From: Streptomyces halobius | GTDB taxonomy: Bacteria > Actinomycetota > Actinomycetes > Streptomycetales > Streptomycetaceae | Assembly (NCBI RefSeq): GCF_023277745.1 | Contig: NZ_CP086322.1 | Span: 5,580,001-5,644,000 of the forward strand | Direction of reading: 5' to 3' | Length of the DNA: 64,000 nucleotides | Shown here: one piece after another, positions 2,395-27,309 of the stretch | Numbering within the stretch: position 1 is the stretch's first letter | Layout of the letters: each line of letters starts with the position of its first letter | Made by a program: the position numbers and the translations under genes | The notes under the pieces: model-generated | What the model was told of the DNA's origin: nothing | The model's database searches: none | Seen by the model: only the letters and a program-made list of their open reading frames with translations

Positions 2395-2409
2395 CTGACG
2401 GTACATCAG
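2395..2409. promoter_or_regulatory. TetR-type operator candidate 1
   Basis: CTGACGGTACATCAG matches the CTGACG-N3-CGTCAG palindrome with one mismatch. It sits only 4-10 bp upstream of the two possible starts of the thiolase-fold gene, where a bound repressor would block transcription or initiation. Confidence 0.6.
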
Positions 2410-2475
2410 TTCACCTTGGGCGGGCAGGGGGTGATCCATCCCTGCCCCTGGGAAAGTCACCCCTCCGTATCTACT

Positions 2476-2490
2476 ATGACGGCCCGTCAG
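2476..2490. promoter_or_regulatory. TetR-type operator candidate 2
   Basis: ATGACGGCCCGTCAG matches the shared palindrome with one mismatch. It lies in the divergent intergenic region, 72 bp before the acyl-CoA dehydrogenase start at 2563, and fits a promoter-proximal site for that gene. Confidence 0.65.
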
Positions 2491-2562
2491 TTCTCCGCTT
2501 CGATCTGCTGGTGCCCATCGGGACGAGATGGGTGTTGACGTACGGCCGGGAGGAGCCCGCCG

Positions 2563-4071
2563 ATGGATGCCGCGTTCACCGAGGAGCAGCACGAGATCCG
2601 CCGCACGCTGCGCGAACTGCTCCACAAACGCTGCGGACCGGACGACGTCAAGGCGGCGGTGCGCACCCCGCCGGGTCATGACGAGGCGCTGTGGCGGCAG
2701 CTCGCCCAGCAGCTCGGGTTGCCGGGCCTGGCGCTGCCCGCCGCGTACGGAGGGGTCGGCTGCGGGCCCACCGAGCTCGCCCTGGCCTGCGAGGAGGCCG
2801 GCCGCGCGCTGCTGCCCTCGCCGCTGATCGCCTCCGCCGCGCTCGCCGCGCCGCTCATCCTGGCGCTCGGCAGCGAGCGGCAGCGCGCCGAGCTGCTGCC
2901 GGCCATCGCCGCGGGAAAACTCACCGGAACGCTCGCCGTACCGGGCGGGCAGCTGGCCACCGCTCTGGCGCTGACCGGGCCGAATGACGGCGACTGGGCG
3001 GGCGGCGGCCGGTCGGGCGGGATCCAGGCGCGTCCGCACGACGGAAGGTGGCGGCTTTACGGGGAGGCCGGGCAGGTCCTGGACGGGCACACCGCCGGGG
3101 TACTGCTGGTGGCTGCGCATACCGGCGGGTTCGCCCGCAGTCGCACGTTGCTCTTCGTCGTACGGGGGGAGGAGGGGCGCGATGGGCGCCTGTGTACGCA
3201 CGTCGGCGTAGGGGGTGGCCCACGGGACGGAGGAGGCGGAGTGCGGGGCAGGTCAGGGGGCAGCACGATGCCTGACGCGAGGCCCAACGCTAAGCCCGAC
3301 ACGAGGCCGAGCATGAAGCCCGACACGAGGCCGAGCATGAAGCCCGACACGAGACCGGACACGGAGCCCGACACGGGGCCGGACACGGAGCCCGACACGG
3401 GGCCGGACATGGAGCCCGACACCCCCGGTCTCCTCCGTACCCGGCAGACCGTGATGGACGAGACCCGGCCGCAGGCGCGCATCGAACTGCGCAATGTGCC
3501 AGCCGAGTTGCTCGGCTACGCGGACGGCGCAGGCACCGGCAGCGGTGACGTGGACCGTGGCGAGGGGGCCGTGGCGGCCGCGCTCGCCGCGATCGGGGTC
3601 ACGGCGGCCGCGGCACTGGCCGCGGAGGCGGTCGGCGCGGCTGATGCGGCGCTGGCCCGGACCGTCGAATACGTCCGGGTGCGTGAGCAGTTCGGCCGCC
3701 CGATCGGCTCCTTTCAGGCGGTGCAGCACCGGCTCGCCGACCTGTATGTGGCGGTGCAGGCGGCCCGCTCGGCGGCGTACTACGCGGCCTGGTCGGCGGG
3801 CGGTGGTGGGGCCGGGCCGCGGCGCGGGGCCGAGCCGGGCGTCGCCGCGCTTGCGCTCGCGCAGGCGCTGGAGACGCAGCGCGCGGTAGCGGCCGAGGCG
3901 GTGCAGCTGCATGGTGGTATCGGCTTCACCTGGGAGCACGAAGCGCATCTCTATTTCAAGCGCGCGGCCTGCGACGAACTGCTGCTGGGCCCCGTGCACC
4001 GGCTGCGGGCGCGAGCCGCGGAGGAAGCCGGACTGTTCGATGTCGGGACGAGAGAGGCGGCCGGTGCCTGA
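2563..4071 (+). CDS. Acyl-CoA dehydrogenase with internal repeat insertion
   Basis: A 502-residue flavoprotein acyl-CoA dehydrogenase, which performs alpha,beta-desaturation of an acyl-CoA. The N-terminal helical domain is residues 1-115 (TEEQHEIRRTLRELLHKRC; LPGLALPAAYGGVGCGP). The middle beta-domain follows, and the C-terminal helical domain carries RTVEYVRVREQFGRPIGSFQ and QLHGGIGFTWEHEAHLYFKR. Family members of this type are about 370-400 residues. The extra length is a segment at about residues 200-290 that includes 24-bp tandem repeats encoding KPDTRPSM and EPDTGPDT units. The segment falls between two beta-domain strands (LLFVV and GLLRTRQTVMDETRPQARIE), so it probably forms an acidic/proline-rich surface loop. 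The stop overlaps the start of the next gene (TGATG), implying translational coupling. Confidence 0.92.
   Translation: MDAAFTEEQHEIRRTLRELLHKRCGPDDVKAAVRTPPGHDEALWRQLAQQLGLPGLALPAAYGGVGCGPTELALACEEAGRALLPSPLIASAALAAPLILALGSERQRAELLPAIAAGKLTGTLAVPGGQLATALALTGPNDGDWAGGGRSGGIQARPHDGRWRLYGEAGQVLDGHTAGVLLVAAHTGGFARSRTLLFVVRGEEGRDGRLCTHVGVGGGPRDGGGGVRGRSGGSTMPDARPNAKPDTRPSMKPDTRPSMKPDTRPDTEPDTGPDTEPDTGPDMEPDTPGLLRTRQTVMDETRPQARIELRNVPAELLGYADGAGTGSGDVDRGEGAVAAALAAIGVTAAAALAAEAVGAADAALARTVEYVRVREQFGRPIGSFQAVQHRLADLYVAVQAARSAAYYAAWSAGGGGAGPRRGAEPGVAALALAQALETQRAVAAEAVQLHGGIGFTWEHEAHLYFKRAACDELLLGPVHRLRARAAEEAGLFDVGTREAAGA
3271..3426 (+). repeat. 24-bp in-frame tandem repeats inside acyl-CoA dehydrogenase
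   Basis: Two families of 24-bp units lie end to end: exact copies at 3301-3324 and 3325-3348, then a related pair at 3361-3384 and 3385-3408, with partial units at both ends. All keep the reading frame and encode 8-residue Pro/Asp/Thr units. Confidence 0.9.
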
Positions 4072-4547
4072 TGCCAACTGGTGAGCGGTGGGTGCAGAAG
4101 ATCTCCTCGACCCGTACGTTCGCACGGATCGCACCGCATTTCATCCCTTCCTTGGACCGCGCCGTACATCGGCTGACCCGGGGAAGGGTGCTGCTCAGCG
4201 CTCGGATGCTGCCCGGTCTGATCCTTACGGCGACCGGTGCGAAGAGCGGCCGGCCGCGGCGTACGCCCCTGGCGTGCATACCGGAGGGTGACGGCAGCTG
4301 GTTGCTGGTCGGCAGCAATTTCGGCCGGCCGGGGCATCCGTCCTGGACCGGCAACCTGCTCAAGCACCCAGAGGCGGAGGTCAGTTGGCGGGGCCAGGAC
4401 ATTCCCGTACGGGCCCGGCTGCTCACCGGCGCGGAACGGGAGCGGGCATGGCGGGCGGCCCTGGAGTTCTGGCCGCCGTATGCCGCGTATCAGGCGCGGG
4501 TGGAGCGGGAGATCCGGCTGTTCCGTCTGGTGCGGCGGATGCCGTAG
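4071..4547 (+). CDS. Ddn-type deazaflavin (F420)-dependent nitroreductase-family protein
   Basis: A 158-residue split-barrel protein of the nitroreductase/DUF385 (Ddn) family, which binds reduced coenzyme F420 and reduces enone or quinone substrates. The diagnostic core is LTATGAKSGRPRRTPL (residues 51-66), then LLVGSNFGRPGHPSWTGNLL and HPEAEVSWRGQDIPVRAR. The C-terminus (FWPPYAAYQARVEREIRLF) is also typical. It overlaps the acyl-CoA dehydrogenase stop by one base, so the two are almost certainly co-transcribed and may work on the same substrate. Its presence links the acyl-CoA genes to F420, as do the three luciferase-like genes downstream and fbiC. Confidence 0.9.
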   Translation: MPTGERWVQKISSTRTFARIAPHFIPSLDRAVHRLTRGRVLLSARMLPGLILTATGAKSGRPRRTPLACIPEGDGSWLLVGSNFGRPGHPSWTGNLLKHPEAEVSWRGQDIPVRARLLTGAERERAWRAALEFWPPYAAYQARVEREIRLFRLVRRMP

Positions 4548-4607
4548 CGGCACGGCGCACGGTTGGCGCCGGCGTCTGTGCCCGCCGCGGACATTCGGCC
4601 CGTGTGC

Positions 4608-4675
4608 GTGGGCCGAGCATGCACATCGGGTGCGCGGGCTGAGGTGTGGGTGGGCCGAGCATGCACATCGGGTGC
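4608..4675. repeat. Perfect 26-bp direct repeat
   Basis: Two identical 26-bp copies at 4608-4633 and 4650-4675, 42 bp apart start to start, each carrying a GCATGC palindrome at its centre. They lie downstream of the Ddn-type gene. Function unknown; they could be a protein-binding pair or a recent local duplication. Confidence 0.85.
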
Positions 4676-4705
4676 CGTTCGACCTCCTAGGGGCCGGACG
4701 GCACC
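4671..4705. terminator. Hairpin between convergent genes
   Basis: GGTGCCGT at 4671-4678 pairs with ACGGCACC at 4698-4705 across a 19-nt loop. It lies between the Ddn-type gene and the convergent TetR gene and could terminate from either side. There is no T-tract, as is common in Streptomyces. Confidence 0.45.
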
Positions 4706-4853
4706 CGCTGTGTGTGCAGCTGTGCAGTTATGGCAGGACGGATACAGGACGGATCGCGAACTGTCCCGGAAGCACCGGTGGTTCGGGGCGCGGCGCGCAC
4801 GAACGCGGCGTCCCTGACGGCGGTTCGGCGGCACTGGTTCACCGCTCGCGCCG

Positions 4854-5501
4854 CTACTTCGTCGGCTTTTTGCCGGTGACGCCGAGGTGCACCAGCAGCG
4901 CCAGATTCGGCTTGAGCTCGGCCTGTTTGACGCCCCAGCTCTGGAAGCCCTTCTGGTGCCCGGCGACGGCCGCCAGCATCGCGACGATCGAGCCGGCCAT
5001 GGCGGCCGCGTTCACGTCCTTGTCGACCTTGTTCCTGCTCTGGAGGTCCTGGATGCTTTCTGTAAGGGAGTTGGTGACCGCGTTGAGGATCTTCATGCGG
5101 ATCTTGTAGAACCGCTTGTCGCCCTCGGCGGCGCCCAGATCGACGACGCGCAGAATCGCGTCGTTCTTGCGCCAGAAGGAGAGAAAGCCGTCGACGAGCT
5201 CCTCTGCCGCCTGCCAGCCGGACTTGCCCACCCAGGAGCGTCCGGCCACGAGATCGGTCAGATTTGCGCCTTCTTTGGCCATCTCCTCGGCGATTTCGAG
5301 GACGGCGCCCTCCACGTCCGGGAAGTACTGATAGAACGTGGCGGGTGAAGTCCCCGCTTTTCGGGCCACATCGATGACTTTTACGTCCCGGTAAGGGGAC
5401 GAACTGAGCATTTCGCTGAGGCAGTCGAGCAGCTTCTGCCGCGTCGCCTGTCCGCGGCGGCCGGCAACTCTGCCGTCGACGGTTCGCACTTGTCCTGTCA
5501 T
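4854..5501 (-). CDS. TetR-family regulator, candidate repressor of the catabolic regulon
   Basis: A 215-residue repressor. The HTH lies at about residues 18-62 (ATRQKLLDCLSEML, then DVKVIDVARKAGTSPATFYQ and YFPDVEGAV). The C-terminal ligand domain is alpha-helical and has fewer charged clusters than neighbouring proteins. The ATG at 5501 overlaps a degenerate copy of the CTGACG-N3-CGTCAG palindrome (5495-5509), suggesting autorepression. The stretch beyond it (5502-6720) holds no gene. TetR proteins with acyl-CoA or steroid-CoA ligands control similar gene sets in other actinobacteria. The ligand here is unknown, and the link to the operators is inference from position and sequence. Confidence 0.92.
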   Translation of the reverse strand: MTGQVRTVDGRVAGRRGQATRQKLLDCLSEMLSSSPYRDVKVIDVARKAGTSPATFYQYFPDVEGAVLEIAEEMAKEGANLTDLVAGRSWVGKSGWQAAEELVDGFLSFWRKNDAILRVVDLGAAEGDKRFYKIRMKILNAVTNSLTESIQDLQSRNKVDKDVNAAAMAGSIVAMLAAVAGHQKGFQSWGVKQAELKPNLALLVHLGVTGKKPTK

Positions 5502-5509
5502 GCCGTCAG
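5495..5509. promoter_or_regulatory. Weak operator overlapping the TetR start codon
   Basis: CTGTCATGCCGTCAG has one perfect half-site (CGTCAG) and a half-site with two mismatches, in the same 6-3-6 arrangement as the stronger copies. It overlaps the ATG at 5499-5501. Confidence 0.4.
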
Positions 5510-5694: not shown

Positions 5695-6720
5695 GCGCGC
5701 GGCGGACAGTGTCCCCCTGCCGGTACCCGTCCGGCCCTTGCCCGGCCCATGCCCGGCCCCTGTCGGTGCGCCCAGCCGGGCCGCGGGCGGCGCCCGCCTG
5801 GCACCGGTCCGGGATGTGCGCACGCCGCCGTCGGTGTCGTCGGCCCACCGCCCGGTGTCATCGGCGAAGCGAAACGGAACCCCGGCGGTCCGTTCGTGGT
5901 CTTCACCGACAAGGAGATCGACATTGCCGGCGCCACGCGTGGTGTACGTACACCGAAATCGCCCTCTGCACCGCAGAATTGGGGCGAGCGTACGAGTGCG
6001 GACGCCGGTGCGCGCAGGCGCGGGGCGAGGGCCGACAACGGGGGATGGGATGACCGGTAGGGGCAGGGGATGGACGCATGACGGCCTGGCGGTGGTTGCG
6101 CCGTGCGGCGGCGTGCGGTTAGCGATGCGGGGCGGTAGGAGGGGGCCCCGGGAGATGACGCGCCCTGTACCGGTATCGTCCGCGGCCGGCTCCGCCATAC
6201 GGAGCGTCCGGTGCGTCCGTCACGAGAGGCGCGTGCTGTCGTCCGATCACGTCCGGTGCGTCCGCTACCTGCGACGCGTGCTGTCGACGGGCCGCATCCG
6301 GTGCCGCGGCCACGTAACACGCGTGCTGTCGTCGGGCCACCGCATCCGGTGCGTCCGCCATCCGGGACGCGTCCCGCTGATCCACCGCGTCCGATACCGG
6401 CGATACCGTGTGCCCGCCAACGATCCGCAACTGGTCGGTAACCCCGCGTCGACGGTCCGTCAGACGGCGCATCGGAGCACGTCAGACGGGGGTGCATTAC
6501 GCCAGGTAACGGCATCTGTGCGTACCGCGCGGCGTGATCCGTGACACGACGGGCAGGCCCCGGGTTCGCAACCGTCGGCCCGGCCAGGAACAATCAGCAC
6601 GCGTACGGCCGTTTCGACAGTCCTCGCCGCAGGCGGGGGGACGCTGCACGGGGCAGTGGCTCTCGGCGGCTCGTGGCTATTGAGAGTCTCTTTTTCGCCC
6701 CACGGGGAGGTGGCAGGCAA
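5695..6720. other. Gene-free intergenic region
   Basis: About 1 kb before the kinase start in which I recognise no protein. Open frames on both strands are Arg/Pro-rich and look like composition artefacts. It contains the tandem repeat at 6230-6375. A ribosome-binding site (GGGGAGGTGG) lies near 6703, just before the kinase start. Confidence 0.6.
6230..6375. repeat. Imperfect 45-48 bp tandem repeat
   Basis: The block beginning CGCGTGCTGTCG occurs at 6230, 6275 and 6320, with a diverged fourth start (CGCGTCCCGCTG) at 6368. Each unit also contains a CATCCGGTGC or CGTCCGGTGC core. Spacing is 45, 45 and 48 bp. A half-unit precedes the first copy. It lies about 350 bp upstream of the afsK-like start. 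Confidence 0.75.
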
Positions 6721-10955: not shown

Positions 10956-11729
10956 TCACTGGTCCTGGCTCCCGTCCCGCTGCCGCTTCCGGGCGGCGAA
11001 CAGCTCCGCCTGGCGCTCCGGTGGCAGATTGCCCAGCGCGATCAGCTGCGGGGCGTGCGCCAGCGCCTGCGTCCTGGCCGCCTCTTTGGTAGCCCAGAGA
11101 GCCCGTACGGTGCCCTGGACCGCCTCCGTGGGCTGCGCGGCGAGCACGGCCGCGCAGCGCAGCGCCGCCTCGGCCGCGGCACCGGGAGCGGTCAGCTCGG
11201 AGACCAGACCGATCTCGTGCGCGCGCCGTGCCCCCAGCCGCTCCGCCGTCCCCATGAGGGACATCCTGGCGACCTCCCCCAAGGGCATCCGCTGCGCCAT
11301 GTAGATGGCCTCATATGCGCTGACCATCCCGTAGGTGGTGTGCGGGTCGAAGAACGTGGAGTTCTCGGAGGCGACGATGAACTCGGCCTCGCCCAGGAGG
11401 TAGAAGGCGCCGCCGCAGGCCATGCCGTCCACGGCGGCCACGACCGGTTTCCAGAGGTCGTTGGCCTTCGGGCCGATGCGGATCATCGGGTCGTCGAGGG
11501 AGTAGGGGGAGGCGGGCTGCGGGACGTCCACGGAGCGGTCGATGCCGGTGCAGAAGGCCCGGCCGCCGGCGCCGGTGACCACCGCGGCCCGTACGGCGTC
11601 GTCGAAGCGGAAATCGCGCCAGACGGCGGCGAGTTCGGCGGCGGTGCCGAGGTCGACGGCGTTGTGCCGCTCGGGCCGGTCGAGGGTGACCAGCGCGACC
11701 CCGTCCTGGATATCCGTACGGATCGTCAC
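10956..11729 (-). CDS. Enoyl-CoA hydratase/isomerase family protein
   Basis: A 257-residue crotonase-fold enzyme, normally hydrating or isomerising an enoyl-CoA. It starts VALVTLDRPERHNAVDLGTA and keeps the oxyanion-hole segments AFCTGIDRS and VDGMACGGAFYLL. The acidic catalytic positions differ from housekeeping hydratases: FFDPHTTYGMVSAYE replaces the usual Glu region, so the exact reaction is open. It is the third gene of an operon (thiolase-fold, DUF35, hydratase) and overlaps the DUF35 gene by 4 bp (11726-11729), implying coupled translation. Confidence 0.9.
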   Translation of the reverse strand: MTIRTDIQDGVALVTLDRPERHNAVDLGTAAELAAVWRDFRFDDAVRAAVVTGAGGRAFCTGIDRSVDVPQPASPYSLDDPMIRIGPKANDLWKPVVAAVDGMACGGAFYLLGEAEFIVASENSTFFDPHTTYGMVSAYEAIYMAQRMPLGEVARMSLMGTAERLGARRAHEIGLVSELTAPGAAAEAALRCAAVLAAQPTEAVQGTVRALWATKEAARTQALAHAPQLIALGNLPPERQAELFAARKRQRDGSQDQ

Positions 11730-12256
11730 GGCCGCTCCAGGAGCCAGCGGGGAACGGTGACGCCCCCGGGCATGGTGTGGAACGTGACCTTCACCGGGGC
11801 GCCGATCCGCAGCCGTGCCGGGTCGACGGAGCGGAGAGGCGCGTCGGCGGAGGCGACGAGGTTGCCGACAAGGCGTATCCGCGGGGCCTCCGCCAGCTCC
11901 ACGACGACCGCGTTGTACGGCGCCTGGGCGGCGTACGCGGGCAGCAGCGGCGGGTGCGGCACGACGTAGGACCAGATGCGGCCGCGGCCGCTCATCCGCT
12001 GCCAGCGGCTGTCGAAGGACTGGCAGTGCGGGCAGCAGGGCCGCGGCGGGAAGCGGGGCTCGTCGCAGCGGGAGCAGGTCTGGACGCGGAGTTCGCCCTG
12101 CGCCGCATAGGCCCAGAACGGCGCGCCGTCCTCGTCGGGGACGGGAACCAGCAGCTCGGCGCCGGTCTCGGGCCGATTGTCAGTGGCGGGTGCCACGATC
12201 GTAGCCATGGACTCACGAGAGCTTTCCCGCACGGACTCAGAATCACGATCGCTCAT
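11726..12256 (-). CDS. DUF35 Zn-ribbon/OB-fold protein, partner of thiolase-fold enzyme
   Basis: A 176-residue acyl-CoA-associated OB-fold protein. The rubredoxin-like zinc ribbon is visible as CSRCDEPRFPPRPCCPHC, and the OB fold follows (GRGRIWSYVVPHPP to VKVTFHTMPGGVTVPRW). In steroid side-chain degradation such proteins form a complex with Ltp2-type thiolase-fold proteins that performs a retro-aldol cleavage. Here the partner gene lies immediately upstream with a 6-bp gap. The start is uncertain: the ATG at 12256 adds a Ser/Arg-rich leader, and the ATG at 12208 (MATIV) would give a more typical N-terminus. Confidence 0.88.
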   Translation of the reverse strand: MSDRDSESVRESSRESMATIVAPATDNRPETGAELLVPVPDEDGAPFWAYAAQGELRVQTCSRCDEPRFPPRPCCPHCQSFDSRWQRMSGRGRIWSYVVPHPPLLPAYAAQAPYNAVVVELAEAPRIRLVGNLVASADAPLRSVDPARLRIGAPVKVTFHTMPGGVTVPRWLLERP

Positions 12257-12262
12257 CCCGCA

Positions 12263-13420
12263 TCAACTCCTCAGCAGCAGGGCCGAGGTGGGGACGCCCT
12301 CGCCCGCGGTGACCAGGCAGGTGGCGGCGTCCGGGACCTGCGCGGTGCTGGTGCCGCGCAGCTGCTTGACGCCTTCGGTGATGAGATTGAAACCGTGGAC
12401 GTACGCCTCCGAGAGGCCGCCGCCACCGGTGTTGAGGGGCAGCCGACCGCCGGTCTCCAAGGCTCCGCCCTCGGTGAAGGCCGCGCCTTCGCCGCGCGCG
12501 CAGAAGCCATAGCCCTCCAGGGAGAGGAGGATGAGGGGGGTGAACGCGTCATAGATCTGTGCCACGTCGATGTCCTGCGGTCCGAGGTCGGCGCCCTTCC
12601 ACAGGTGCCGGGCGGCGGTCCAGGCAGGGCCGGTGAGCGGGTCGTCGTTCCAGTAGTTGACCATTCCGTGGTGCTGGGCGGGCAGGCCCTGGGCGGCGGA
12701 GTGGATAAGGACGGGCCGGTGGCGGCAGTCGCGGGCGCGCTCGGCCGAGACCACCACACAGGCCAACGCACCGTCCGTCTCCAGGCAGTTGTCGAAGAGG
12801 CAGAGCGGTTCGCTGATCCAGCGGGCAGTCATATACATCTCGCGGGTCAGCGGGCGGTCGTACATGATCGCGGCCGGGTTCTGGTTGGCGCGGTTGCGGC
12901 AGGCGAGCGCGACGTTGAAGAGATGGTCGCGGGTGGCGCCGTACTCGTGCATATAGCGACGGGCCAGCATGCCGATCTCGTCGGCGGGGCGCAGCAGTCC
13001 GAAGGGCCGGGTCCACTGTCCTGGGGTGGGCAGCTGCATGTGGGTGTTCTTCCAGGGCCGGGGCCCCGAGCCGCGTTTGCGGGACCGCCAGGCGACCCCG
13101 ACATTCGCCTGGCCGGTGGCGATGGCGGCCGCCAGATGGGCCACCGTCGCACAGGAACCGCCGCCGCCATAGCCGACCTTGGAGAAGTGGGTGACGTCCC
13201 CGGCGCCGATCGCCTTCGCTATCTCGACCTCGTCCGTCTCCTCCATGGTGTAGGAGGCGAAGGCGTCCACTTCCGAGGGGGCGATGCCCGCGTCGTCGAG
13301 CGCAGCGAGGATCGCCTGGCAGGCCAAGGTCTTTTCCGGTTCCGGGAGTTGTCTGGCAAAGGGAGTCTGTCCGATGCCGGCTATCGCCGTAGCGTCCTTG
13401 AGGGTCGCCCCCATCGCCAC
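12263..13420 (-). CDS. Ltp2-like thiolase-fold protein (putative aldolase subunit)
   Basis: A 385-residue protein of the thiolase-like lipid-transfer family. It has IAGIGQTPFARQLPEPEKTL at the N-terminus, the GYGGGGSCATVAHLAAAI segment with a Cys, IYDAFTPLI and LNTGGGGLSEAYVHGF. The His-Pro of real thiolases is replaced by EAYVHG. Tyrosines in IYDAFT and GLSEAY are what I recall as the catalytic pair of Ltp2-type aldolases. Together with the adjacent DUF35 gene this argues for carbon-carbon bond cleavage of a beta-hydroxyacyl-CoA rather than thiolysis. First gene of a three-gene operon, divergent from an acyl-CoA synthetase across an operator-bearing 100-bp gap. Confidence 0.88.
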   Translation of the reverse strand: MAMGATLKDATAIAGIGQTPFARQLPEPEKTLACQAILAALDDAGIAPSEVDAFASYTMEETDEVEIAKAIGAGDVTHFSKVGYGGGGSCATVAHLAAAIATGQANVGVAWRSRKRGSGPRPWKNTHMQLPTPGQWTRPFGLLRPADEIGMLARRYMHEYGATRDHLFNVALACRNRANQNPAAIMYDRPLTREMYMTARWISEPLCLFDNCLETDGALACVVVSAERARDCRHRPVLIHSAAQGLPAQHHGMVNYWNDDPLTGPAWTAARHLWKGADLGPQDIDVAQIYDAFTPLILLSLEGYGFCARGEGAAFTEGGALETGGRLPLNTGGGGLSEAYVHGFNLITEGVKQLRGTSTAQVPDAATCLVTAGEGVPTSALLLRS

Positions 13421-13468: not shown

Positions 13469-13483
13469 CTGACGCCCAGTCAG
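13469..13483. promoter_or_regulatory. TetR-type operator candidate 3
   Basis: CTGACGCCCAGTCAG matches the shared palindrome with one mismatch. It lies between the divergent thiolase-fold operon and the acyl-CoA synthetase, 49 and 38 bp from their starts, so one site could control both. Confidence 0.65.
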
Positions 13484-13520: not shown

Positions 13521-15137
13521 ATGCGCGGTGACCTGGATGCGCGGGCGGACCTGGAGTACGGCTCGATCCCCCGGCTGATGCGTACGGCCGCGCAGCGGTA
13601 CGGCCCCAGGGAAGCCGTGGTCGACGGGCGTACCCGGCTGTCCTACGCCGAACTGGGCGAACGGGTGGAGCGAGCGGCGGCGGCCTGTGTGGCGTCCGGC
13701 GTCGCCCCCGGCGACCGCGTCGCCGTCTGGGCGCCCAACACCCTCGACTGGATCGTCTCCGCCCTCGGCGCCGTAACGGCCGGCGCGGTCCTCGTCCCCG
13801 TCAACACCCGCTTCAAGGGCGCCGAGGCCGCCGATGTCCTTCGCCGCACCCGCGCCAAGCTCCTCTTCATCACCGGCACCTTCCTCGGCACCTCCTATGT
13901 CGCCTCACTGCGCCGCGCCACCCAGGAAGGCGCCGGCCACGGCCCGCTGCCCGGCCTGCCGCACCTCGAACAGGTCGTGGTGCTTGCCGACGACGCCCCC
14001 GCCGACTTCGTCACCTGGAAGGACTTCCTGGCCACCGGAGAGGCGGTACCCGTTGAGACGGTCCACACCCGGGCCGGTGCCCTGCGCCCCGACGCCCCTT
14101 CGGACATCATCTTCACCTCCGGCACCACCGGCCACCCCAAGGGCGCCGTGATCACGCATGCCCAGACCCTGCGCGCCTACGACGTCTGGAGCGAACTGGC
14201 CGGCCTCCAGGAGGGCGACCGCTACCTCATCGTCAACCCGTTCTTCCACACCTTCGGCTACAAGGCCGGCATCATCGCCTGCCTCCTCCGCGGCGCCACG
14301 ATGATTCCCCAGCCCGTCTTCAGCGTGGAGACCGCGCTCGCCCATATCGCCGCCGAGCGGATCTCGGTACTCCCCGGCCCGCCCACCCTCCACCGCCGGA
14401 TTCTCGACCATCCCGCGCGCGCCCAGCATGACCTCTCCGCACTGCGCCTGGTGGTCACCGGCGCCGCCGTCGTCCCCCTGGAACTGGTCGAGCGGCTGCG
14501 CAGCGAGCTGGGTATAGCCACCGTCCTTACGGCATACGGCCTTTCGGAGAGCTCCGGAATCGTCACGATGTGCCGCCGCGACGACCCGCCCGAGGCCATC
14601 GCGTCGACCTCGGGCCGCGCCCTCCCCGGCACCGAGGTCCGCGTCGTGGACGCAGCGGGCCGTGCCATGCCCCCCGGCGACTCCGGCGAGGTCCTGGTCC
14701 GCGGCTACCACGTCATGTCCGGATACTTCGAGGACCCGGCCGGCACGGCCCGTGCGATCACCCCCGACGGCTGGCTGCGCACCGGCGACGTCGGCGTCCT
14801 CGACGAGGCGGGCAACCTCCGGATCACCGACCGCATCAAGGACATGTTCATCGTCGGCGGCTTCAACGCCTATCCGGCAGAAATTGAGCAACTCCTCAGC
14901 CGCCACCCGGACATCACCGATGTCGCCGTCATCGGCATACCCGACCCCCGCCTCGGCGAGGTCGGCAGAGCCTACGCGGTCCGGCGGCCGGGCTCCGCCC
15001 TTACCGCCGACGACCTCATAGCGTGGTCCCGCCGCGAAATGGCCAACTACAAGGTGCCGCGGGAGGTGACGTTCGTCAGTGAGCTGCCGCGCAATGCGAG
15101 CGGCAAGGTGGTGAAGATGCGCTTGCGCGCGTCTTGA
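13521..15137 (+). CDS. Fatty-acid/carboxylate-CoA ligase, FadD3-like
   Basis: A 538-residue ANL-superfamily adenylating enzyme that activates a carboxylic acid to its CoA thioester. The P-loop is IIFTSGTTGHPKGAVITH. YGLSESSG and GEVLVRGYHVMSGYF follow, then LRTGDVG and the C-terminal hinge RIKDMFIVGGFNAYPAEIE. The catalytic lysine is in PRNASGKVVKMRLR at the end. The gene is full length. The overall look is closest to synthetases acting on propionate side chains of polycyclic or terpenoid acids (FadD3 group), but substrate cannot be read from sequence. It shares an operator-bearing intergenic region with the Ltp2-like operon. Confidence 0.92.
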   Translation: MRGDLDARADLEYGSIPRLMRTAAQRYGPREAVVDGRTRLSYAELGERVERAAAACVASGVAPGDRVAVWAPNTLDWIVSALGAVTAGAVLVPVNTRFKGAEAADVLRRTRAKLLFITGTFLGTSYVASLRRATQEGAGHGPLPGLPHLEQVVVLADDAPADFVTWKDFLATGEAVPVETVHTRAGALRPDAPSDIIFTSGTTGHPKGAVITHAQTLRAYDVWSELAGLQEGDRYLIVNPFFHTFGYKAGIIACLLRGATMIPQPVFSVETALAHIAAERISVLPGPPTLHRRILDHPARAQHDLSALRLVVTGAAVVPLELVERLRSELGIATVLTAYGLSESSGIVTMCRRDDPPEAIASTSGRALPGTEVRVVDAAGRAMPPGDSGEVLVRGYHVMSGYFEDPAGTARAITPDGWLRTGDVGVLDEAGNLRITDRIKDMFIVGGFNAYPAEIEQLLSRHPDITDVAVIGIPDPRLGEVGRAYAVRRPGSALTADDLIAWSRREMANYKVPREVTFVSELPRNASGKVVKMRLRAS

Positions 15138-15657: not shown

Positions 15658-17205
15658 CTACGCCCGGTACCGCGCCCGCAGGGCCTCTTTCAGCACCTTG
15701 TGCAGCGGGCCCCCGCGCGGCAGCTCGTCGGCGATCTCCAGTTGTTCCGGCAGCTTCTGCGTCATCAGCCCGGCCGCCCGAAGATGGCTGTTCAGGGCCG
15801 CCAGCGAGAGTTGCGCGGCCGCCGGATCGGCGAGCGTGACCACCGCGCAGAGCCGCTCCCCGCGCTCGCGGTCCGGCAGCCCGATCACCGCCGCCTCCGC
15901 CACCGCCGGATGCGTGCGCACCAGGTCCTCGATCTCCTGCGCCGAGATGTTCTCGCCCTTGCGGATGATGATGTCCTTCAGGCGTCCGGTGAGCACAAGA
16001 TGCCCGTCCGGCCGCAGATATCCCAGGTCACCGGTGTGGAAGTACCCCTCGGCGTCGAACGCGTCCGTGGTCAGCGCCGGGTCGGTGTACCGGCGGAAGA
16101 GCATCGCGCCCTTGAGCGTCACCTCACCGGCCTCGCCCACCCCGGCCTCGCTGCCGTCCGGCCGGGCGATCCGCACCTCCGCTCCCACCACCGGCCTCCC
16201 CACCGTCCGCGACAGCTGCTCATCGCTGTCGTACGGCGTCCCCATCGCGATCATCGGGCACTCCGTCATCCCGTACCCGTGCACGATGGCGCACTCCAGC
16301 TCCCGCCCGGCCGCCGCGTACAGCTCCGGCGGCAGCGGCGCCCCGCCGCCGGACAGCAGCCGCAGCGACGGAATCAGCTTGCCGTGGCCCGCCCGACGTC
16401 GCGACTCGTCGAGAAACGCTTGGTAGAAGGCGGTGCTGCCACCGGCCATCGTCACCCCGCGACGTGCGTACGCATCAGCCGCCTCGGCAGCCGTGAAGGT
16501 CTCCAGAATCACCGCAGGAAATCCGCTCACCAGCATGGCGATGACATAGTCGGGCCCCGCGATATGCGCGTACGGAAACGCGATCGACCCGATGTCCTGC
16601 GCTGACATGCCCAGCGCGGTCGCCAGCCCCACCCCACCGGCGATCAGGGTCGCGTCCGTATGCTCGACGCCCTTGGGCGCGGCCGTCGTCCCGGACGTGT
16701 AGTAGATCCAACGGGTCCGCGCCGCCCCCCGCTCCCGCTCCGGCGTGAACTCCGGCAGCCCGGCCGGTTCGCCCACCGGCAGCCCGCCCCCCACGGAGAT
16801 CACCCGCACCCCGTCCCCGGCCAGTTTCCGCACCATCGCGGTGTGGTCGAACCCCCGCCAGATGCCCGGCACGAGAACGTACTCGGTCGCCGACTCGCCG
16901 AGAATGAAACCGACTTCACGTTCCCGGTGGAGAGGAATCACCGGCGTCTGTACGGCACCGAGCCGGGCCAGTGCGATCGATGCGATGACCGTGTCGATCC
17001 GCGTCGGCAGCTGCCATGCCACCCGCGTCCCGCACCCGATCCCCAACTCCCGGAAGCCGGCGGCGACTCGCAGCGCCTCGTCCCGTACGCCGTCGAAAGT
17101 GACGGTCCGCCCGTCGCCGTCGAAGAACATCGGCGCGCCACGCGAGGCCGCCGCCCGGTACTCGACCAGTTCCCAGAGCGTGTGTATACGAGCGGACTCA
17201 AACAC
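15658..17205 (-). CDS. Acyl-CoA synthetase (AMP-forming)
   Basis: A 515-residue ANL enzyme. Motifs are IYYTSGTTAAPKGVEH (P-loop), HGYGMTECPMIAMGT, GYFHTGDLGYLRPDG, the hinge LTGRLKDIIIRKGENISAQE and the C-terminal lysine region GPLHKVLKEALRA, which is shorter than usual after the lysine. It resembles cyclohexanecarboxylate/long-chain-type synthetases more than the neighbouring FadD3-like gene. The two probably activate different intermediates or substrates. It has its own operator (17252-17266) and is convergent with the first ligase. Confidence 0.92.
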   Translation of the reverse strand: MFESARIHTLWELVEYRAAASRGAPMFFDGDGRTVTFDGVRDEALRVAAGFRELGIGCGTRVAWQLPTRIDTVIASIALARLGAVQTPVIPLHREREVGFILGESATEYVLVPGIWRGFDHTAMVRKLAGDGVRVISVGGGLPVGEPAGLPEFTPERERGAARTRWIYYTSGTTAAPKGVEHTDATLIAGGVGLATALGMSAQDIGSIAFPYAHIAGPDYVIAMLVSGFPAVILETFTAAEAADAYARRGVTMAGGSTAFYQAFLDESRRRAGHGKLIPSLRLLSGGGAPLPPELYAAAGRELECAIVHGYGMTECPMIAMGTPYDSDEQLSRTVGRPVVGAEVRIARPDGSEAGVGEAGEVTLKGAMLFRRYTDPALTTDAFDAEGYFHTGDLGYLRPDGHLVLTGRLKDIIIRKGENISAQEIEDLVRTHPAVAEAAVIGLPDRERGERLCAVVTLADPAAAQLSLAALNSHLRAAGLMTQKLPEQLEIADELPRGGPLHKVLKEALRARYRA

Positions 17206-17251: not shown

Positions 17252-17266
17252 GTGACGCGCCGTCAG
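17252..17266. promoter_or_regulatory. TetR-type operator candidate 4
   Basis: GTGACGCGCCGTCAG matches the palindrome with one mismatch, 46 bp upstream of the acyl-CoA synthetase start at 17205. Confidence 0.65.
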
Positions 17267-21577: not shown

Positions 21578-21592
21578 CTGACGCAGCGTCAG
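21578..21592. promoter_or_regulatory. TetR-type operator candidate 5 (perfect)
   Basis: CTGACGCAGCGTCAG is a perfect CTGACG-N3-CGTCAG palindrome, 22 bp upstream of the amidohydrolase ATG, a position expected to block transcription. Confidence 0.75.
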
Positions 21593-21614: not shown

Positions 21615-22880
21615 ATGGAGACCATGAAGACGGTGACGACCATGGAGACCTTCCCCGAGATCATCTCGGTGGACGACCACACGGTGGAACCCCCCAACGT
21701 CTGGCGGGACCGCCTCCCGTCGAAGTATCACGACACGGGCCCGCGCATCGTCCGGGCGCCGATAAAGGAAATGACCTTCGTGGGCGGTAAGTTCGCCCCG
21801 AAGATGGGTGCCGCGGGCGACGACGGGCCGATCGCCGACTGGTGGGTCTACGAAGACCTGCACCGTCCGCTGACCCGCCTCGACACGGCCGTCGGCTACT
21901 CCCGCGACGACATCAAGCTCGAAGGCATCACCTACGAGCAGATGCGCCCCGGCTCGTACTCCGTCCCCGAGCGGCTGGCCGACATGGACCTCAACCACGT
22001 CCAGTCCGCCCTGTGCTTCCCCACCTTCCCCCGCTTCTGCGGCCAGACCTTCACCGAGGCCAAGGACCGTGAGCTGGGACTGCTGGGCGTACGCGCGTAC
22101 AACGACTGGATGGTGGAGGAGTGGTGCGGCCCGCAGGCGCAGGGCCGGCTGATCCCCCTCACCCTCGTCCCCCTCTGGGACGCGGAACTGGCCGCCACGG
22201 AGGTACGACGCAACGCGGCCCGGGGCGTACGGGCGGTCTGCTTCAGCGAAATTCCGCCACACCTGGGACTGCCGAGCATTCACACCGACTACTGGGACCC
22301 GTTCCTGCGCGCCTGCGACGAGACGGGCACGGTCGTGGCCATGCACATCGGCTCGTCGTCCAAGATGCCGTCGACATCCCCCGACGCCCCGCCCGCAGTC
22401 GGCTCCACCGTCACGTTCGCCAACTGCTGCTTTTCGATGGTCGACTGGCTGATGAGCGGCGCGTTCGACCGCTTCCAGAACCTGAAGATCATGTACGCGG
22501 AGGGCCAGATCGGCTGGATCCCGTACATCCTGGAACGCGCGAACGTCGTCTGGGAGGAGAACCGGGGCTGGGGCGGCGTGGCCGACAAGGTCCTCCGCCC
22601 ACCGTCCGAACTCTTCGCCGAGCATGTGTACGGCTGCTTCTTCGACGACGCCTTCGGGCTGCGCAACCTCGACGCGATCGGCGTCGGCAATGTCCTGTAC
22701 GAGACGGACTACCCGCACTCGGACTCCACCTGGCCCAAATCGAAAGAGGTCGGCCAGTCCCAGATGGGTCACCTGGATCCGGACGTGGTGGAGCGCATCG
22801 TGCGGGGGAACGCGATCGAGGTGTTGGGGCTTACGGGGGAGGGGGTCTGGGGGCCGGCGGTGGGAGGAGGGGCACCGTAA
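21615..22880 (+). CDS. Amidohydrolase-family (ACMSD-like, PF04909-type) metallohydrolase
   Basis: A 421-residue TIM-barrel hydrolase or decarboxylase. The N-terminal metal motif is VDDHTVEPPNVW. Later landmarks are MHIGSSSKMPSTSPDAP, ANCCFSMVDWLMSGAFDRF, YAEGQIGWIPYILERA and ETDYPHSDSTWP. The Asp and His there are typical of the 2-amino-3-carboxymuconate-semialdehyde decarboxylase superfamily. Several ATGs (21615, 21624, 21642) are possible. Such proteins accompany luciferase-like and SDR genes in many uncharacterised actinobacterial catabolic clusters. It has the best operator in the set just upstream. Confidence 0.92.
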   Translation: METMKTVTTMETFPEIISVDDHTVEPPNVWRDRLPSKYHDTGPRIVRAPIKEMTFVGGKFAPKMGAAGDDGPIADWWVYEDLHRPLTRLDTAVGYSRDDIKLEGITYEQMRPGSYSVPERLADMDLNHVQSALCFPTFPRFCGQTFTEAKDRELGLLGVRAYNDWMVEEWCGPQAQGRLIPLTLVPLWDAELAATEVRRNAARGVRAVCFSEIPPHLGLPSIHTDYWDPFLRACDETGTVVAMHIGSSSKMPSTSPDAPPAVGSTVTFANCCFSMVDWLMSGAFDRFQNLKIMYAEGQIGWIPYILERANVVWEENRGWGGVADKVLRPPSELFAEHVYGCFFDDAFGLRNLDAIGVGNVLYETDYPHSDSTWPKSKEVGQSQMGHLDPDVVERIVRGNAIEVLGLTGEGVWGPAVGGGAP

Positions 22881-24198: not shown

Positions 24199-24201
24199 GG
24201 C

Positions 24202-24333: not shown

Positions 24334-24576
24334 ATGCCGCACTGGATCGCCCGCCTCTTCGAGTCGCTATTGCGCCTGTTACTGCCTGCGCCGGGCCGAC
24401 ACCGGGCAGTCGCAGCCACCGCACTCCCGATCGCCGAGCCCCGCGCCGCAGCGTCGGCCGGGAGGCTGATCCGTGTGCCGATGGTGCGGGGTGAGGACAC
24501 GGTCATGGTGCGCCCGTATCTCGTCGCGTATGAGCGGGAGCAGGCTGCGCGACGGCGGGCGGAGGTGGCTGCATGA
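24334..24576 (+). CDS. Small protein of unknown function (XRE cassette)
   Basis: 80 residues. The N-terminus MPHWIARLFESLLRLLLPAP is amphipathic and could contact membrane; the rest is Arg/Ala-rich (RLIRVPMVRGEDTVMVRPYL, then VAYEREQAARRRA). The stop overlaps the next start (ATGATG context at 24573), so it is translationally coupled. A conserved companion of XRE regulators of this type; no function known to me. Confidence 0.7.
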   Translation: MPHWIARLFESLLRLLLPAPGRHRAVAATALPIAEPRAAASAGRLIRVPMVRGEDTVMVRPYLVAYEREQAARRRAEVAA

Positions 24577-24893
24577 TGCGCGAGCCAGAGGGCGCCACCC
24601 GGCTGCTCCCGTGGTCGACCGTGCGGGGTCGGCCGTGCTTCCTCGTCAGCGATGGCACCGGTTACGTATCCCGTCTCGCGGACAGCGTCGAGGCCGTCCG
24701 GCTCGGCATGGCGAACGAGCTGCTCGGCCACGCCGCCGACCTGCTCAAGGACCATAGGGCGACGGCCATCGAGCTGCACTTCCTCGCCCTCCGGTTGACC
24801 GAGTCCCTGCGGGACGTACTCCGCATCGCGGAGAGCCAGGGCGCACGTCTCGGTGGAGGTGCCCCGAAGCCACCGTCGGGGGAGGCCCGATGA
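24573..24893 (+). CDS. Small hypothetical protein (XRE cassette)
   Basis: 106 residues, overlapping both neighbours by 4 bp (ATGA). The middle (CFLVSDGTGYVSRLADSVEA, then RLGMANELLGHAADLLKD) is predicted helical, with a Pro/Gly tail. No enzymatic motif. The tight coupling with the preceding and following genes suggests equimolar production and possibly a complex or a toxin/antitoxin-like role, which I cannot support further. Confidence 0.75.
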   Translation: MMREPEGATRLLPWSTVRGRPCFLVSDGTGYVSRLADSVEAVRLGMANELLGHAADLLKDHRATAIELHFLALRLTESLRDVLRIAESQGARLGGGAPKPPSGEAR

Positions 24894-25153
24894 GGGGCAG
24901 CAGCGGCCGCGTCGTTCGAGCCCGGTACCGCTTCGTCGATTGGACGCTGAAAGCGATGCCCGACATGCCCGTTCGCTACGTCGGCACATGCCTCTGCTGC
25001 GGAGAACGGTCCGCAGGCACCGACAATCCCGACGACGCACAGCTGTGGTGCCTCAAGCACGCGGGCGCCACCGGGGACACCGGATACGAGCTGTCGACTC
25101 ACAGCTGCTTCGACGCGGCGCCGAGCGCGGCGAGTGGGGCCCCCGCCCGATGA
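24890..25153 (+). CDS. Small Cys-rich (zinc-ribbon-like) protein, DUF7848-type
   Basis: 87 residues. CLCCGERS, then a second cluster WCLKHAGATGDTGYELSTHS with Cys and His, suggest one zinc site; FVDWTLKAMPDMPVRY precedes it. Small proteins of this pattern usually close XRE-led cassettes in Streptomyces. Coupled to the previous gene by an ATGA overlap. Function unknown. Confidence 0.75.
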   Translation: MRGSSGRVVRARYRFVDWTLKAMPDMPVRYVGTCLCCGERSAGTDNPDDAQLWCLKHAGATGDTGYELSTHSCFDAAPSAASGAPAR

Positions 25154-25207
25154 ACTCTACGAACGGTCGGTGCGGCGGTCTCGGTGCCCGTGCCGCGCAA
25201 CCCTTGC

Positions 25208-25222
25208 CTGATGGTTCGTCAG
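25208..25222. promoter_or_regulatory. TetR-type operator candidate 6
   Basis: CTGATGGTTCGTCAG matches the palindrome with one mismatch, 56 bp before the luciferase-like gene start at 25279. Confidence 0.65.
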
Positions 25223-25251
25223 GTACGACGATGACGGCATTCGTGCAGGGA

Positions 25252-25266
25252 GTGACGTAGCGTCGT
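25252..25266. promoter_or_regulatory. Weaker second operator before the luciferase-like gene
   Basis: GTGACGTAGCGTCGT retains the TGACG-TAG-CGTC core of the perfect site at 27295 but loses three outer positions. It is 12 bp from the start codon and could strengthen repression. Confidence 0.4.
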
Positions 25267-25278
25267 TGGGGGCCGGGC

Positions 25279-26226
25279 ATGGTGCGGATCTTGCCGCAGG
25301 GGCGGATGGCTTACGGGGTGCAGTTGCCCGTTCAGTCGCAGAGCAGCCTCTTCGCGGAAGCGTGGGAGGCGGAGGCGGGGCCGGTCGATCTCGTCGAGAT
25401 CGCGCGGAGCGCGGACCACGCCGGGTTCGCGTACATCGCGTGCTGCGATCACGTGGCGATACCCCGGAGGCTCGCGGCGGCGATGGGCACGACCTGGTAC
25501 GACCCCGTGGCCACGCTCTCGTACCTGGCGGGGGTCACCGAGCGGGTGAAGCTGCTCAGCCATGTCGCCATCGTCGGACTGCGGCATCCGCTCATCTCGG
25601 CCAAGCAGTACGCCACCCTCGACCATCTCTCCGGCGGACGGCTGATCCTCGGGGTCGGGGCGGGGCATGTGGCGGAGGAGTTCGAGGCGCTGGGGGCCGA
25701 CTTCCGGGGGCGTGGGGCTGCGCTCGACGAGACCGTCGACGCGCTGAGGGCTGCTCTCGGGCCCGACGAGTACCCCGAGCATCACGGCGAGCGGTACCGG
25801 TTCAGAGGGCTCGGGCAGCGGCCCCGGCCCGCCCAGGACCGTGTCCCCCTATGGGTGGGCGGCTCCTCGCCCGCGGCCGTCCGCAGGGCTGCGACCAGGG
25901 GTGACGGCTGGCTGCCGCAGGGCGACCCGCGCGACCGATTGCCTGCGCAGATCGCGAAGCTGAAGCGGCTGAGGGAGGCGGCCGGCGTCGCGGAACCGAT
26001 CGAGATCGGGGCCATTGCCGAGCCGTTGTATGTGGGTGAGCCCGGTTGGCCGGTCGGGCGGCGGACGCTCGTGGGGAAGGCGGACGTCATCGCCGAGTCC
26101 TTGCGGGAGTACGCGGCGATGGGCGTGGGGCAGATTCAGGTGCGGTTCCGGAGCCGGAGCCGGGACGAACTCGTCGATCAGATGGCGGCGTTCGGGGACG
26201 ATGTCGCGCCGCTTCTGGATGGTTAG
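25279..26226 (+). CDS. Luciferase-like (LLM) F420-type oxidoreductase 1
   Basis: A 315-residue TIM-barrel oxidoreductase. YGVQLPVQSQSSLFAEAWEA is at the start, then FAYIACCDHVAIPRRLAAAM and VKLLSHVAIVGLRHPLISAK. TLDHLSGGRLILGVGAGHVAEE is the cofactor-region signature, and VPLWVGGSSPAAVRRAATRG closes the core. The pattern is that of actinobacterial F420-dependent members rather than FMN bacterial luciferase. It presumably reduces or oxidises a ketone, imine or alcohol in the pathway. First gene of a likely LLM-SDR unit. Confidence 0.9.
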   Translation: MVRILPQGRMAYGVQLPVQSQSSLFAEAWEAEAGPVDLVEIARSADHAGFAYIACCDHVAIPRRLAAAMGTTWYDPVATLSYLAGVTERVKLLSHVAIVGLRHPLISAKQYATLDHLSGGRLILGVGAGHVAEEFEALGADFRGRGAALDETVDALRAALGPDEYPEHHGERYRFRGLGQRPRPAQDRVPLWVGGSSPAAVRRAATRGDGWLPQGDPRDRLPAQIAKLKRLREAAGVAEPIEIGAIAEPLYVGEPGWPVGRRTLVGKADVIAESLREYAAMGVGQIQVRFRSRSRDELVDQMAAFGDDVAPLLDG

Positions 26227-26230
26227 GCCG

Positions 26231-26310
26231 AGGGGTCGGTAGTCAGTGGCTCCAGTGGCTCCAGTGGCTCGGTAGCTCAGGGGGCCAGTGGCCGAGTGGC
26301 TCGGTGTGGT
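26231..26310. repeat. 9-bp CAGTGGCTC tandem repeat
   Basis: CAGTGGCTC or close variants recur about six times between the LLM and SDR genes. Such slippage-type repeats recur in several gaps of this window. No gene is present. Confidence 0.7.
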
Positions 26311-26361
26311 GAGGCGGTTTGCCGTCCGTTGGGCCGCACCTCACAACAGCAGGAGGCAGGC

Positions 26362-27159
26362 ATGGGAAAGCTGGACGGGCGGGTCGTCATCGTCACGGGT
26401 GCGGCGCGTGGGCAGGGCGAGCAGGAGGCGCGGCTCTTTGTGGCGGAAGGGGCGCGGGTGGTGGTGGGGGATGTGCTGGACGGGCCGGGGGAGGCGCTGG
26501 CCAAGGATCTGGGGGAGGAGTGGGCCCGTTTCGTCCACCTGGATGTGAGTCGGGAGGACGAGTGGTCGGGGGCGGTCGCTGCCGCGAAGTCGACGTTCGG
26601 GAAGGTCGACGGGCTGGTCAACAACGCCGGGATCCTGCGGTTCAACGAACTGGTCAGCACGCCTCTGGAGGAGTTCCAGCAGGTGGTGCAGGTCAACCAG
26701 GTGGGCGCGTTCCTGGGGATGAAGGCCGTGACGCCCGAGCTGGAGGCGGCCGGCGGCGGGACGATCGTGAACACCGCTTCGTACACGGCGCTGACCGGGA
26801 TGGCGTTCCTGACGTCGTACGCGGCGACCAAGGCGGCGATCGTCGGGATGACCCGGGTCGCGTCGATGGAGCTGGCGGGCAAGGGGATACGCGTCAACGC
26901 GATGTGCCCGGGGGCGGTCGATACGCCGATGACCAACCCTGACCGGGTGGCGGCGGACGGCGGGCCGAAAGCGGCTGACGAGACGGGCAGCGCGGCGCTG
27001 GACGAGTTCTACGGGAAGGTCATCCCGATGGGGCGGATCGGGCGGCCCGAGGAGGTTGCCAGGTTGGCGCTCTTTCTGTCGTGCGAGGACTCGTCGTACA
27101 TCACGGGGCAGCCGTTCGTGATCGATGGGGGGTGGATGGCCGGGGTTTCGGTGTTCTGA
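26362..27159 (+). CDS. Short-chain dehydrogenase/reductase (hydroxyacyl/hydroxysteroid type)
   Basis: 265 residues from the ATG at 26362, with a GGAGGC ribosome-binding site. It is a classical SDR: TGAARGQGEQEA (TGxxxGxG, residues 12-19), NNAGIL, catalytic Ser in NTASYTAL, and YAATK with the Tyr 13 residues later. GRIGRPEEVA and ITGQPFVIDGG close the domain. An NAD(H)/NADP(H)-dependent alcohol dehydrogenase; a hydroxysteroid- or 3-hydroxyacyl-like substrate fits the context. No operator of its own; probably read through from the LLM gene 135 bp upstream. Confidence 0.93.
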   Translation: MGKLDGRVVIVTGAARGQGEQEARLFVAEGARVVVGDVLDGPGEALAKDLGEEWARFVHLDVSREDEWSGAVAAAKSTFGKVDGLVNNAGILRFNELVSTPLEEFQQVVQVNQVGAFLGMKAVTPELEAAGGGTIVNTASYTALTGMAFLTSYAATKAAIVGMTRVASMELAGKGIRVNAMCPGAVDTPMTNPDRVAADGGPKAADETGSAALDEFYGKVIPMGRIGRPEEVARLALFLSCEDSSYITGQPFVIDGGWMAGVSVF

Positions 27160-27230
27160 GGGACTGTCGGTGTTTTGAGGGCCGGGGAGCCGGTTGGGGT
27201 CGGGGAGTCGTCTGACCGAAGGCTGACTAC

Positions 27231-27245
27231 CTGACTAGCCGTCAG
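27231..27245. promoter_or_regulatory. TetR-type operator candidate 7
   Basis: CTGACTAGCCGTCAG matches the palindrome with one mismatch. With the perfect site 64 bp further on it forms a tandem pair ahead of the second luciferase-like gene. Confidence 0.6.
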
Positions 27246-27294
27246 GTATTGACGATGCGGGTGGGCGGTGTCAGAGTCGGCCGTGTTCTGCGAG

Positions 27295-27309
27295 CTGACG
27301 TAGCGTCAG
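27295..27309. promoter_or_regulatory. TetR-type operator candidate 8 (perfect)
   Basis: CTGACGTAGCGTCAG is a perfect CTGACG-N3-CGTCAG palindrome, 91 bp before the TTG start at 27401. A GAAGGAG ribosome-binding site lies between. Confidence 0.75.

Follow-up and report, generated by a model that had tools for sequence, protein, structure and literature searches.

A conserved palindrome and its candidate TetR regulator at a catabolic gene cluster of Streptomyces halobius

The palindrome and the genes behind it

The window analysed here is a stretch of 64,000 nucleotides from Streptomyces halobius (contig NZ_CP086322.1, positions 5,580,001 to 5,644,000), in which copies of the palindrome CTGACG-N3-CGTCAG precede a series of catabolic transcription units and a gene for a TetR-family regulator lies among them at 4854-5501. 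The enzymes encoded by the cluster are coenzyme A (CoA) ligases, one of them of the FadD3 family, acyl-CoA dehydrogenases, hydratases, Ltp/DUF35 proteins, LLM and Ddn-type proteins that depend on F420, amidohydrolases and an aldehyde dehydrogenase. Such a gene set fits the stepwise CoA-dependent breakdown of a cyclic or branched compound; in steroid catabolism, retro-aldol cleavage of the side chain is carried out by thiolase-like/DUF35 pairs. Between 6541 and 21284, the catabolic operons are interleaved with genes that an earlier sequence-only reading of this DNA labelled afsK and afsR.

Is the palindrome more frequent than expected? Eight copies with at most one mismatch lie in the window, against a mean of 0.26 in shuffled sequence (largest shuffle, two). 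The sequence-only reading had listed these eight, two perfect and six with one mismatch each, and all are borne out (Table 1). It had added two weaker copies, of which one could be kept. The copy at 5495 has two mismatches and gains weight because the sequence at this position, CTGACGNNATGACAG, is conserved across orthologs of the regulator gene; the copy at 25252 has three. When up to three mismatches are allowed, the window shows no surplus (63 observed, 64.1 expected). Thus, the copy at 25252 has no weight by itself and, like those at 6449 and 23173, was left uncounted.

The transcription units that the sequence-only reading assigned to one regulon all carry sites, and its boundaries proved too narrow: a few likely targets lie in trans, and the cluster reaches about 21 kb further to the left. 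That flank holds six more sites, of which one has two mismatches and the others have one or none; genes were called on 124 kb of contiguous sequence. Over about 49 kb, the entire cluster carries 13 sites that have one mismatch or none, where 0.70 would be expected from the remaining genome (Poisson p = 9e-13), and five perfect sites where 0.06 would be expected; since the span was picked after the sites were known, the p values for the cluster are somewhat too small.

Genome-wide, 145 sites have one mismatch or none, and 16 of these are perfect. A reversed-pattern control (28 against 145) was considered too generous, and same-letter permuted palindromes were added, 60 and later 179 of them. 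The sequence-only reading had named a similar density at unrelated promoters genome-wide as the result that would speak against a regulon; the density outside the cluster is 18-fold lower. Besides the five perfect sites of the cluster, three lie near further catabolic-type genes and eight are apparently unrelated to such genes. Two of these eight (L001 and L007) are identical palindromes beside the same transposase-like gene, and are probably element-borne.

The three perfect sites in trans lie 36 bp before an LLM gene, 40 bp before a DUF35-Ltp operon, and within the called open reading frame (ORF) of an aldehyde dehydrogenase, whose likelier start, itself inferred, lies about 130 bp further on. 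A search with the 19-bp form of the operator described below adds a site 40 bp before a paralog of the Amidohydro_2 gene (57% identical), and by coordinates the same paralog also follows perfect sites in the Streptomyces genomes G092 and G105. The paralog, the LLM gene and the DUF35-Ltp operon, which are of the same enzyme kinds as the cluster, are likely trans targets. The 19-mer scan of the genome with up to three mismatches gives 23 places; among the 15 that were read, five face catabolic-type genes, four of them in the cluster and the fifth being the Amidohydro_2 paralog. One-mismatch sites outside the cluster are mostly background: 16 of the 35 in the 0-2.64 Mb part of the genome lie within called genes, and none of the 35 precedes a gene resembling a cluster enzyme.

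Table 1. Genes and palindrome copies of the cluster in window coordinates (negative values lie left of the window)
Feature	Position	Strand	Remarks
Thiolase/lipid-transfer-like protein	1146..2390	-	Thiolase_C_1
Acyl-CoA dehydrogenase	2563..4071	+	
Ddn-type F420H2-dependent reductase	4071..4547	+	TIGR00026 97.8 bits (cut-off 46.35); PF04075
TetR-family regulator, 215 aa, proposed repressor	4854..5501	-	PF00440, PF19352
Operon of enoyl-CoA hydratase, DUF35/ChsH2-type protein and lipid-transfer protein	10956..13420	-	10956-11729, 11726-12256 and 12263-13420, respectively
FadD3-family acyl-CoA ligase	13521..15137	+	NF005801 799.6 bits (cut-off 657)
AMP-binding CoA ligase	15658..17205	-	
Amidohydro_2 hydrolase	21615..22880	+	Labelled ACMSD-like by the sequence-only reading
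LLM F420-dependent oxidoreductase and SDR	25279..27159	+	25279-26226 and 26362-27159
LLM2, Amidohydro_3 and aldehyde dehydrogenase	27419..31929	+	27419-28522, 28618-30357 and 30511-31929
Predicted operator, 1 mismatch	2395..2409		5 bp 5' of the thiolase-like gene (minus strand, ATG at 2390)
Predicted operator, 1 mismatch	2476..2490		72 bp 5' of the acyl-CoA dehydrogenase-Ddn operon
Near-operator, 2 mismatches, putatively autoregulatory	5495..5509		Spans the tetR start codon
Predicted operator, 1 mismatch	13469..13483		Divergent Ltp2-like/FadD3-like promoter; TAGCCT on the minus strand 17 bp past the half-site
Predicted operator, 1 mismatch	17252..17266		46 bp 5' of the second AMP-binding CoA ligase
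Predicted operator, perfect	21578..21592		Before the Amidohydro_2 gene; first half-site is a -35-like box, TACCGT at 17 bp
Predicted operator, 1 mismatch	25208..25222		Serves the LLM1-SDR unit
Predicted operator, 1 mismatch	27231..27245		First of a pair before LLM2
Predicted operator, perfect	27295..27309		Second of the pair before LLM2
Left-flank site, perfect	-21073		Before an acyl-CoA dehydrogenase pair
Left-flank site	-16569		Flanked by a Cyclase-family gene and an SDR gene
Left-flank site	-9150		31 bp 5' of a flavin reductase gene
Left-flank sites	-4127 (2 mismatches), -4103, -3979		Between an ATP-grasp acyl-CoA synthetase gene and a ChsH2/DUF35 gene

Operator form and promoter layout

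The sequences flanking the palindrome, which were not used in the search, were aligned for 76 cluster sites from Streptomyces and 25 perfect sites from other genera. In a symmetric count, A at position -2 and T at position -1 reach 0.80 and 0.72 outside Streptomyces, and 0.68 and 0.43 within the genus. The same positions give 0.27 and 0.21 at the 31 perfect, background-like sites of G044, a Streptomyces genome without the cluster. The conserved flanks extend the operator to 19 bp, ATCTGACGGNCCGTCAGAT.

The sequence TANNNT occurs exactly 17 bp past a half-site in 15 of 104 gene-facing site-strand pairs from six genomes, against a mean of 0.13 at offsets of 30-59. These 15 cases are the Amidohydro_2 promoter in all six genomes (TACCGT or TACGGT), the minus-strand Ltp2-like promoter in all six, and the FadD3-like promoter in three; for a few other sites, such a box is found at 18 or 19 bp. 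The first half-site as a -35 box at these three promoters suggests repression, since a half-site that doubles as a -35-like box would be the arrangement of a promoter-occluding repressor. At the regulator gene itself, TAAGCT lies 6 bp before the ATG and may serve as the -10 box, in which case the transcript would be leaderless and its start would lie under the operator. Some promoters have two sites: before the acyl-CoA synthetase gene, paired operators stand 24-25 bp apart in six of six genomes, and in three of six the Ltp2/FadD3 promoter has a pair at a spacing of 27 bp. The operator before the thiolase-like gene is 4 bp from the start codon in G064 and G092.

Distribution of sites, catabolic genes and tetR

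Do the sites follow the catabolic genes? When 60-kb tetR regions of 12 other Streptomyces genomes were compared with that of S. halobius, two groups were seen. Most catabolic genes are shared by five regions (G064, G013, G092, G036 and G007), each with 11-14 sites with at most one mismatch, whereas the seven regions without catabolic genes (G044, G117, G027, G010, G037, G091 and G104) have only 0-2. All seven have kept tetR and afsR, and afsK was matched in five. A second set was made up of named loci, the best 80 of at least 567 candidates, of which 56 were full length; these are nearest relatives and therefore offer no negative cases. Catabolic genes are present in all 56, with three to eight sites each.

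Across 121 sampled Streptomyces genomes, the Amidohydro_2 gene served as a marker and was found (at least 81% identical) in 84; this count is 86 minus G104 and G114, which have weaker matches only, and 15 of the marker-less genomes were found by subtraction. The median number of perfect sites per genome is 15 in the 84 genomes with the Amidohydro_2 ortholog and 6 in the 37 without it (p = 1e-10). Eight loci were read in G014, which has 32 sites. G044 has 31 perfect sites, of which 14 lie within called genes and six have a called start within 450 bp. A scattered regulon in G044 was considered and rejected: with 14 intragenic sites, few near starts and no AT flank, these palindromes are taken to be background.

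The same association is found outside the genus. Among 384 genomes from the same phylum but other genera, relatives of the TetR protein (E<=1e-25) are present in 15; two genomes have two copies, giving 17 loci. These proteins are 34-51% identical to the S. halobius regulator and come from other actinomycete genera and classes. The 17 loci (298 kb) contain 15 perfect sites; for 179 permuted palindromes, the mean is 0.07 and the maximum 2. Genome-wide, the median is seven perfect sites with TetR and zero in the 369 genomes without it (Mann-Whitney p=1.3e-16), and at least five perfect sites are found in 10 of the 15 genomes with TetR and in only 2 of 369 without.

Gene calls from a simple gene finder were obtained for 11 of the 17 loci. 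Eight of them hold a perfect site, and L152, L154 and L159 have none. Strong relatives of cluster enzymes in these 11 loci include Amidohydro_2 proteins (56-66% identical) and FadD3-like ligases (up to 58%); acyl-CoA dehydrogenases and hydratases are also present, while LLM and SDR proteins are often mere superfamily matches near 30%. Neither afsK nor afsR was ever the best match in the 11 loci. Of eight site-bearing loci that were measured, three have sites on the 5' side of the tetR match, at a distance of 16-65 bp.

Proposed regulator, rival explanations and related systems

Which protein reads the palindrome? The regulator is most likely the TetR protein at 4854-5501, and the evidence that argues decisively for this candidate is the site-rich loci of its relatives outside the genus. 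Its N-terminal helix-turn-helix domain is over the Pfam cut-off for the TetR family (PF00440 TetR_N, 26.9 bits; cut-off 24), and the C-terminal domain matches PF19352 TetR_C_38 with 247 bits. The best profile matches in PDB are EthR entries (1e-11), too distant to suggest a ligand. The protein is the ortholog of S. coelicolor SCO4421 by synteny, and was found in all 121 sampled Streptomyces genomes. In G120, two tetR copies with equal scores lie about 2 kb apart in opposite orientation (C5:61506-62153 and 64040-64687). All 30 orthologs viewed have CTGACGNNATGACAG over the tetR start codon, as do 12 of 13 regional genomes (S. halobius included in both counts) and 55 of the 56 full-length named loci; this sequence is conserved even where the catabolic cluster is missing. 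By its sequence, the cluster has the outline of an autoregulated catabolic regulon, with a near-site (two mismatches) at the regulator's own start and 13 cluster sites.

It is therefore proposed, as the probable reading of these sequences, that CTGACG-N3-CGTCAG is the core of the ATCTGACGGNCCGTCAGAT operator, through which the TetR protein at 4854-5501 represses a multi-operon catabolic pathway until released by a ligand. A TetR dimer would occupy each predicted site and block RNA polymerase; at tetR itself, the site over the start codon would bring about autoregulation. A ligand formed upon uptake of the substrate would free TetR from its operators, and the CoA- and F420-dependent catabolic operons would be switched on together; by analogy with KstR2, this ligand is plausibly a CoA thioester. 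The claim of the sequence-only reading that one catabolic regulon stands under a TetR protein is supported by the comparative evidence across Streptomyces and other genera.

Several observations weigh against this proposal. The tetR gene, with its recognition region nearly unchanged, occurs in genomes that lack the cluster, and its own site carries two mismatches throughout Streptomyces; two Streptomyces genomes, G115 and G117, have no perfect site despite tetR. Only three promoters have the -35/-10 layout, and its instances are orthologous copies, which do not count as independent. Outside the genus, the TetR-bearing G169 lacks perfect sites, a single one is present in G136 and in G159, and G221 and G426 have two each. 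Conversely, G278 (seven sites) and G219 (five) have no ortholog at E<=1e-25; their best profile matches are 1e-16 and 6e-9, respectively, and no site with at most one mismatch lies in the DNA fetched around these. Four sites each are also present in G180, G197 and G327; the profile search at 1e-8 gave no match in the first two and only one of 2.5e-13 in G327. Could the regulon be real and the palindrome be read by an unlinked factor, the SCO4421-type TetR being a core gene that merely sits in mid-cluster? The persistence of TetR without the cluster, its imperfect own site and the two site-rich genomes of other genera without a clear ortholog would agree with such a factor. However, TetR relatives elsewhere are again found amid sites and catabolic genes, in different surroundings, and the genome-wide number of sites tracks TetR, which makes an unlinked factor improbable. 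The sequence-only reading had offered a second TetR protein, at 38-637, beside the one at 4854-5501. It is a true TetR inside the cluster, but only 63 of the 121 Streptomyces genomes have a match to it at E<=1e-40 (52-63% identical, itself excepted), none of the 12 compared tetR regions contains a counterpart, and genomes without a match are still rich in sites (22 in G006, 17 in G008). Of the two candidates, only that at 4854-5501 fits, and a role of the other as regulator is extremely unlikely.

A chance origin of the palindromes, or a role as hairpin-type terminators, is just as unlikely. The missing surplus at up to three mismatches would agree with chance, as would the background palindromes of G044 and the one-mismatch sites of the 0-2.64 Mb part of the S. 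halobius genome. Against this, the cluster sites precede gene starts, at constant positions before orthologs, and have conserved AT flanks that are missing from the G044 sites. A Streptomyces form of the known KstR or KstR2 steroid regulon would account for the FadD3-family ligase, the Ltp2/ChsH2-like proteins and the HsaB-like flavin reductase. It is nevertheless very unlikely, because the TetR protein at 4854-5501 has no match to the KstR model (NF033703, cut-off 280 bits) at E<=0.001 and its C-terminal domain is TetR_C_38, while a separate KstR-like protein is encoded at 6.88 Mb (192 bits, under that cut-off). The HsaB-like match is itself under its cut-off (190.5 against 230), and no CoA-transferase domain (IpdAB) was found among the cluster genes scanned, which are part of the ORFs. 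The gene for this KstR-like TetR (L262:8888-9520) lies less than 10 kb from aldehyde dehydrogenase and LLM genes, both with perfect sites.

The closest described systems in kind are BkaR and KstR2. KstR2 of mycobacteria and rhodococci, a TetR protein, represses about 15 catabolic genes, fadD3 among them, and its effector is the CoA thioester HIP-CoA (PMC5380842). The present cluster likewise has a FadD3-type ligase; IpdAB was not seen among the genes scanned. The KstR2 operator probably differs from the present palindrome. BkaR of mycobacteria is a TetR that regulates its own gene; a conserved palindrome lies in the promoter of that gene and in those of catabolic genes nearby, and binding and repression were shown (PMC3920632). 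The predicted arrangement in S. halobius is alike, with a site at the TetR start and others at neighbouring catabolic promoters; BkaR differs in the core of its operator, GTTA(N)T(N4)A(N)TAAC, and in its targets, branched-chain keto-acid genes (PMC3920632). In Mycobacterium sp. VKM Ac-1817D, a palindrome termed Motif X was assigned by sequence to a TetR, the ortholog of Rv0767c, and, as here, a site lies near the start codon of that TetR; the genes concerned are different ones (P450s and an isomerase), and the likeness is one of description (PMC6593523).

SCO4421 of S. coelicolor lies near afsK, a position shared by the TetR at 4854-5501, which was matched to it by synteny only. The available sections of the paper report that SCO4421 expression is reduced in a whiA mutant and active in spore chains; within them, no deletion phenotype was detected and targets are not named (PMC3878966). 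The present analysis provides a predicted operator, regulator and gene set for a genus-wide TetR for which only a report of spore-linked expression, without a phenotype, was found, and would bring some twenty poorly understood enzymes together in one pathway. A wider reading is put forward tentatively, as possible rather than probable: a TetR common to all sampled Streptomyces, switched on in spores with the aid of WhiA, may govern an ancient regulon of actinomycetes for a degradation pathway that depends on F420 and CoA and whose genes were lost or gained around it, and may have a second, perhaps developmental, set of targets. Within this wider reading, it is the retention of TetR without the pathway genes that would imply the second set.

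The same operator and a nearby gene for the putative repressor in distant relatives point to one ancient, apparently undescribed switch, and its occurrence in other classes gives an entry point to the catabolic clusters of actinomycetes that have received less study. The sequence-only reading had called the regulon undescribed, and no description of the operator or regulon was found in the literature searched, a scope that leaves out subscription journals and preprints. The motif spellings gave no hit, and a paper on an efflux pump that matched the two halves was judged irrelevant from its listing. The main text of a 2008 paper on predicted sites (PMC2276206) does not contain the words looked for.

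Two further observations concern other genes. Within the left flank of the cluster, a gene at -11676 to -10162 (L018:8324-9838) matches the rifampin monooxygenase model (853 bits; cut-off 800); it has no site with at most one mismatch before it and no counterpart in the compared regions. Elsewhere in the S. halobius genome, L301 and L302 (0.73 and 1.29 Mb) have an identical layout of gene calls around a succinyl-CoA ligase beta-like gene, which suggests a segmental duplication.

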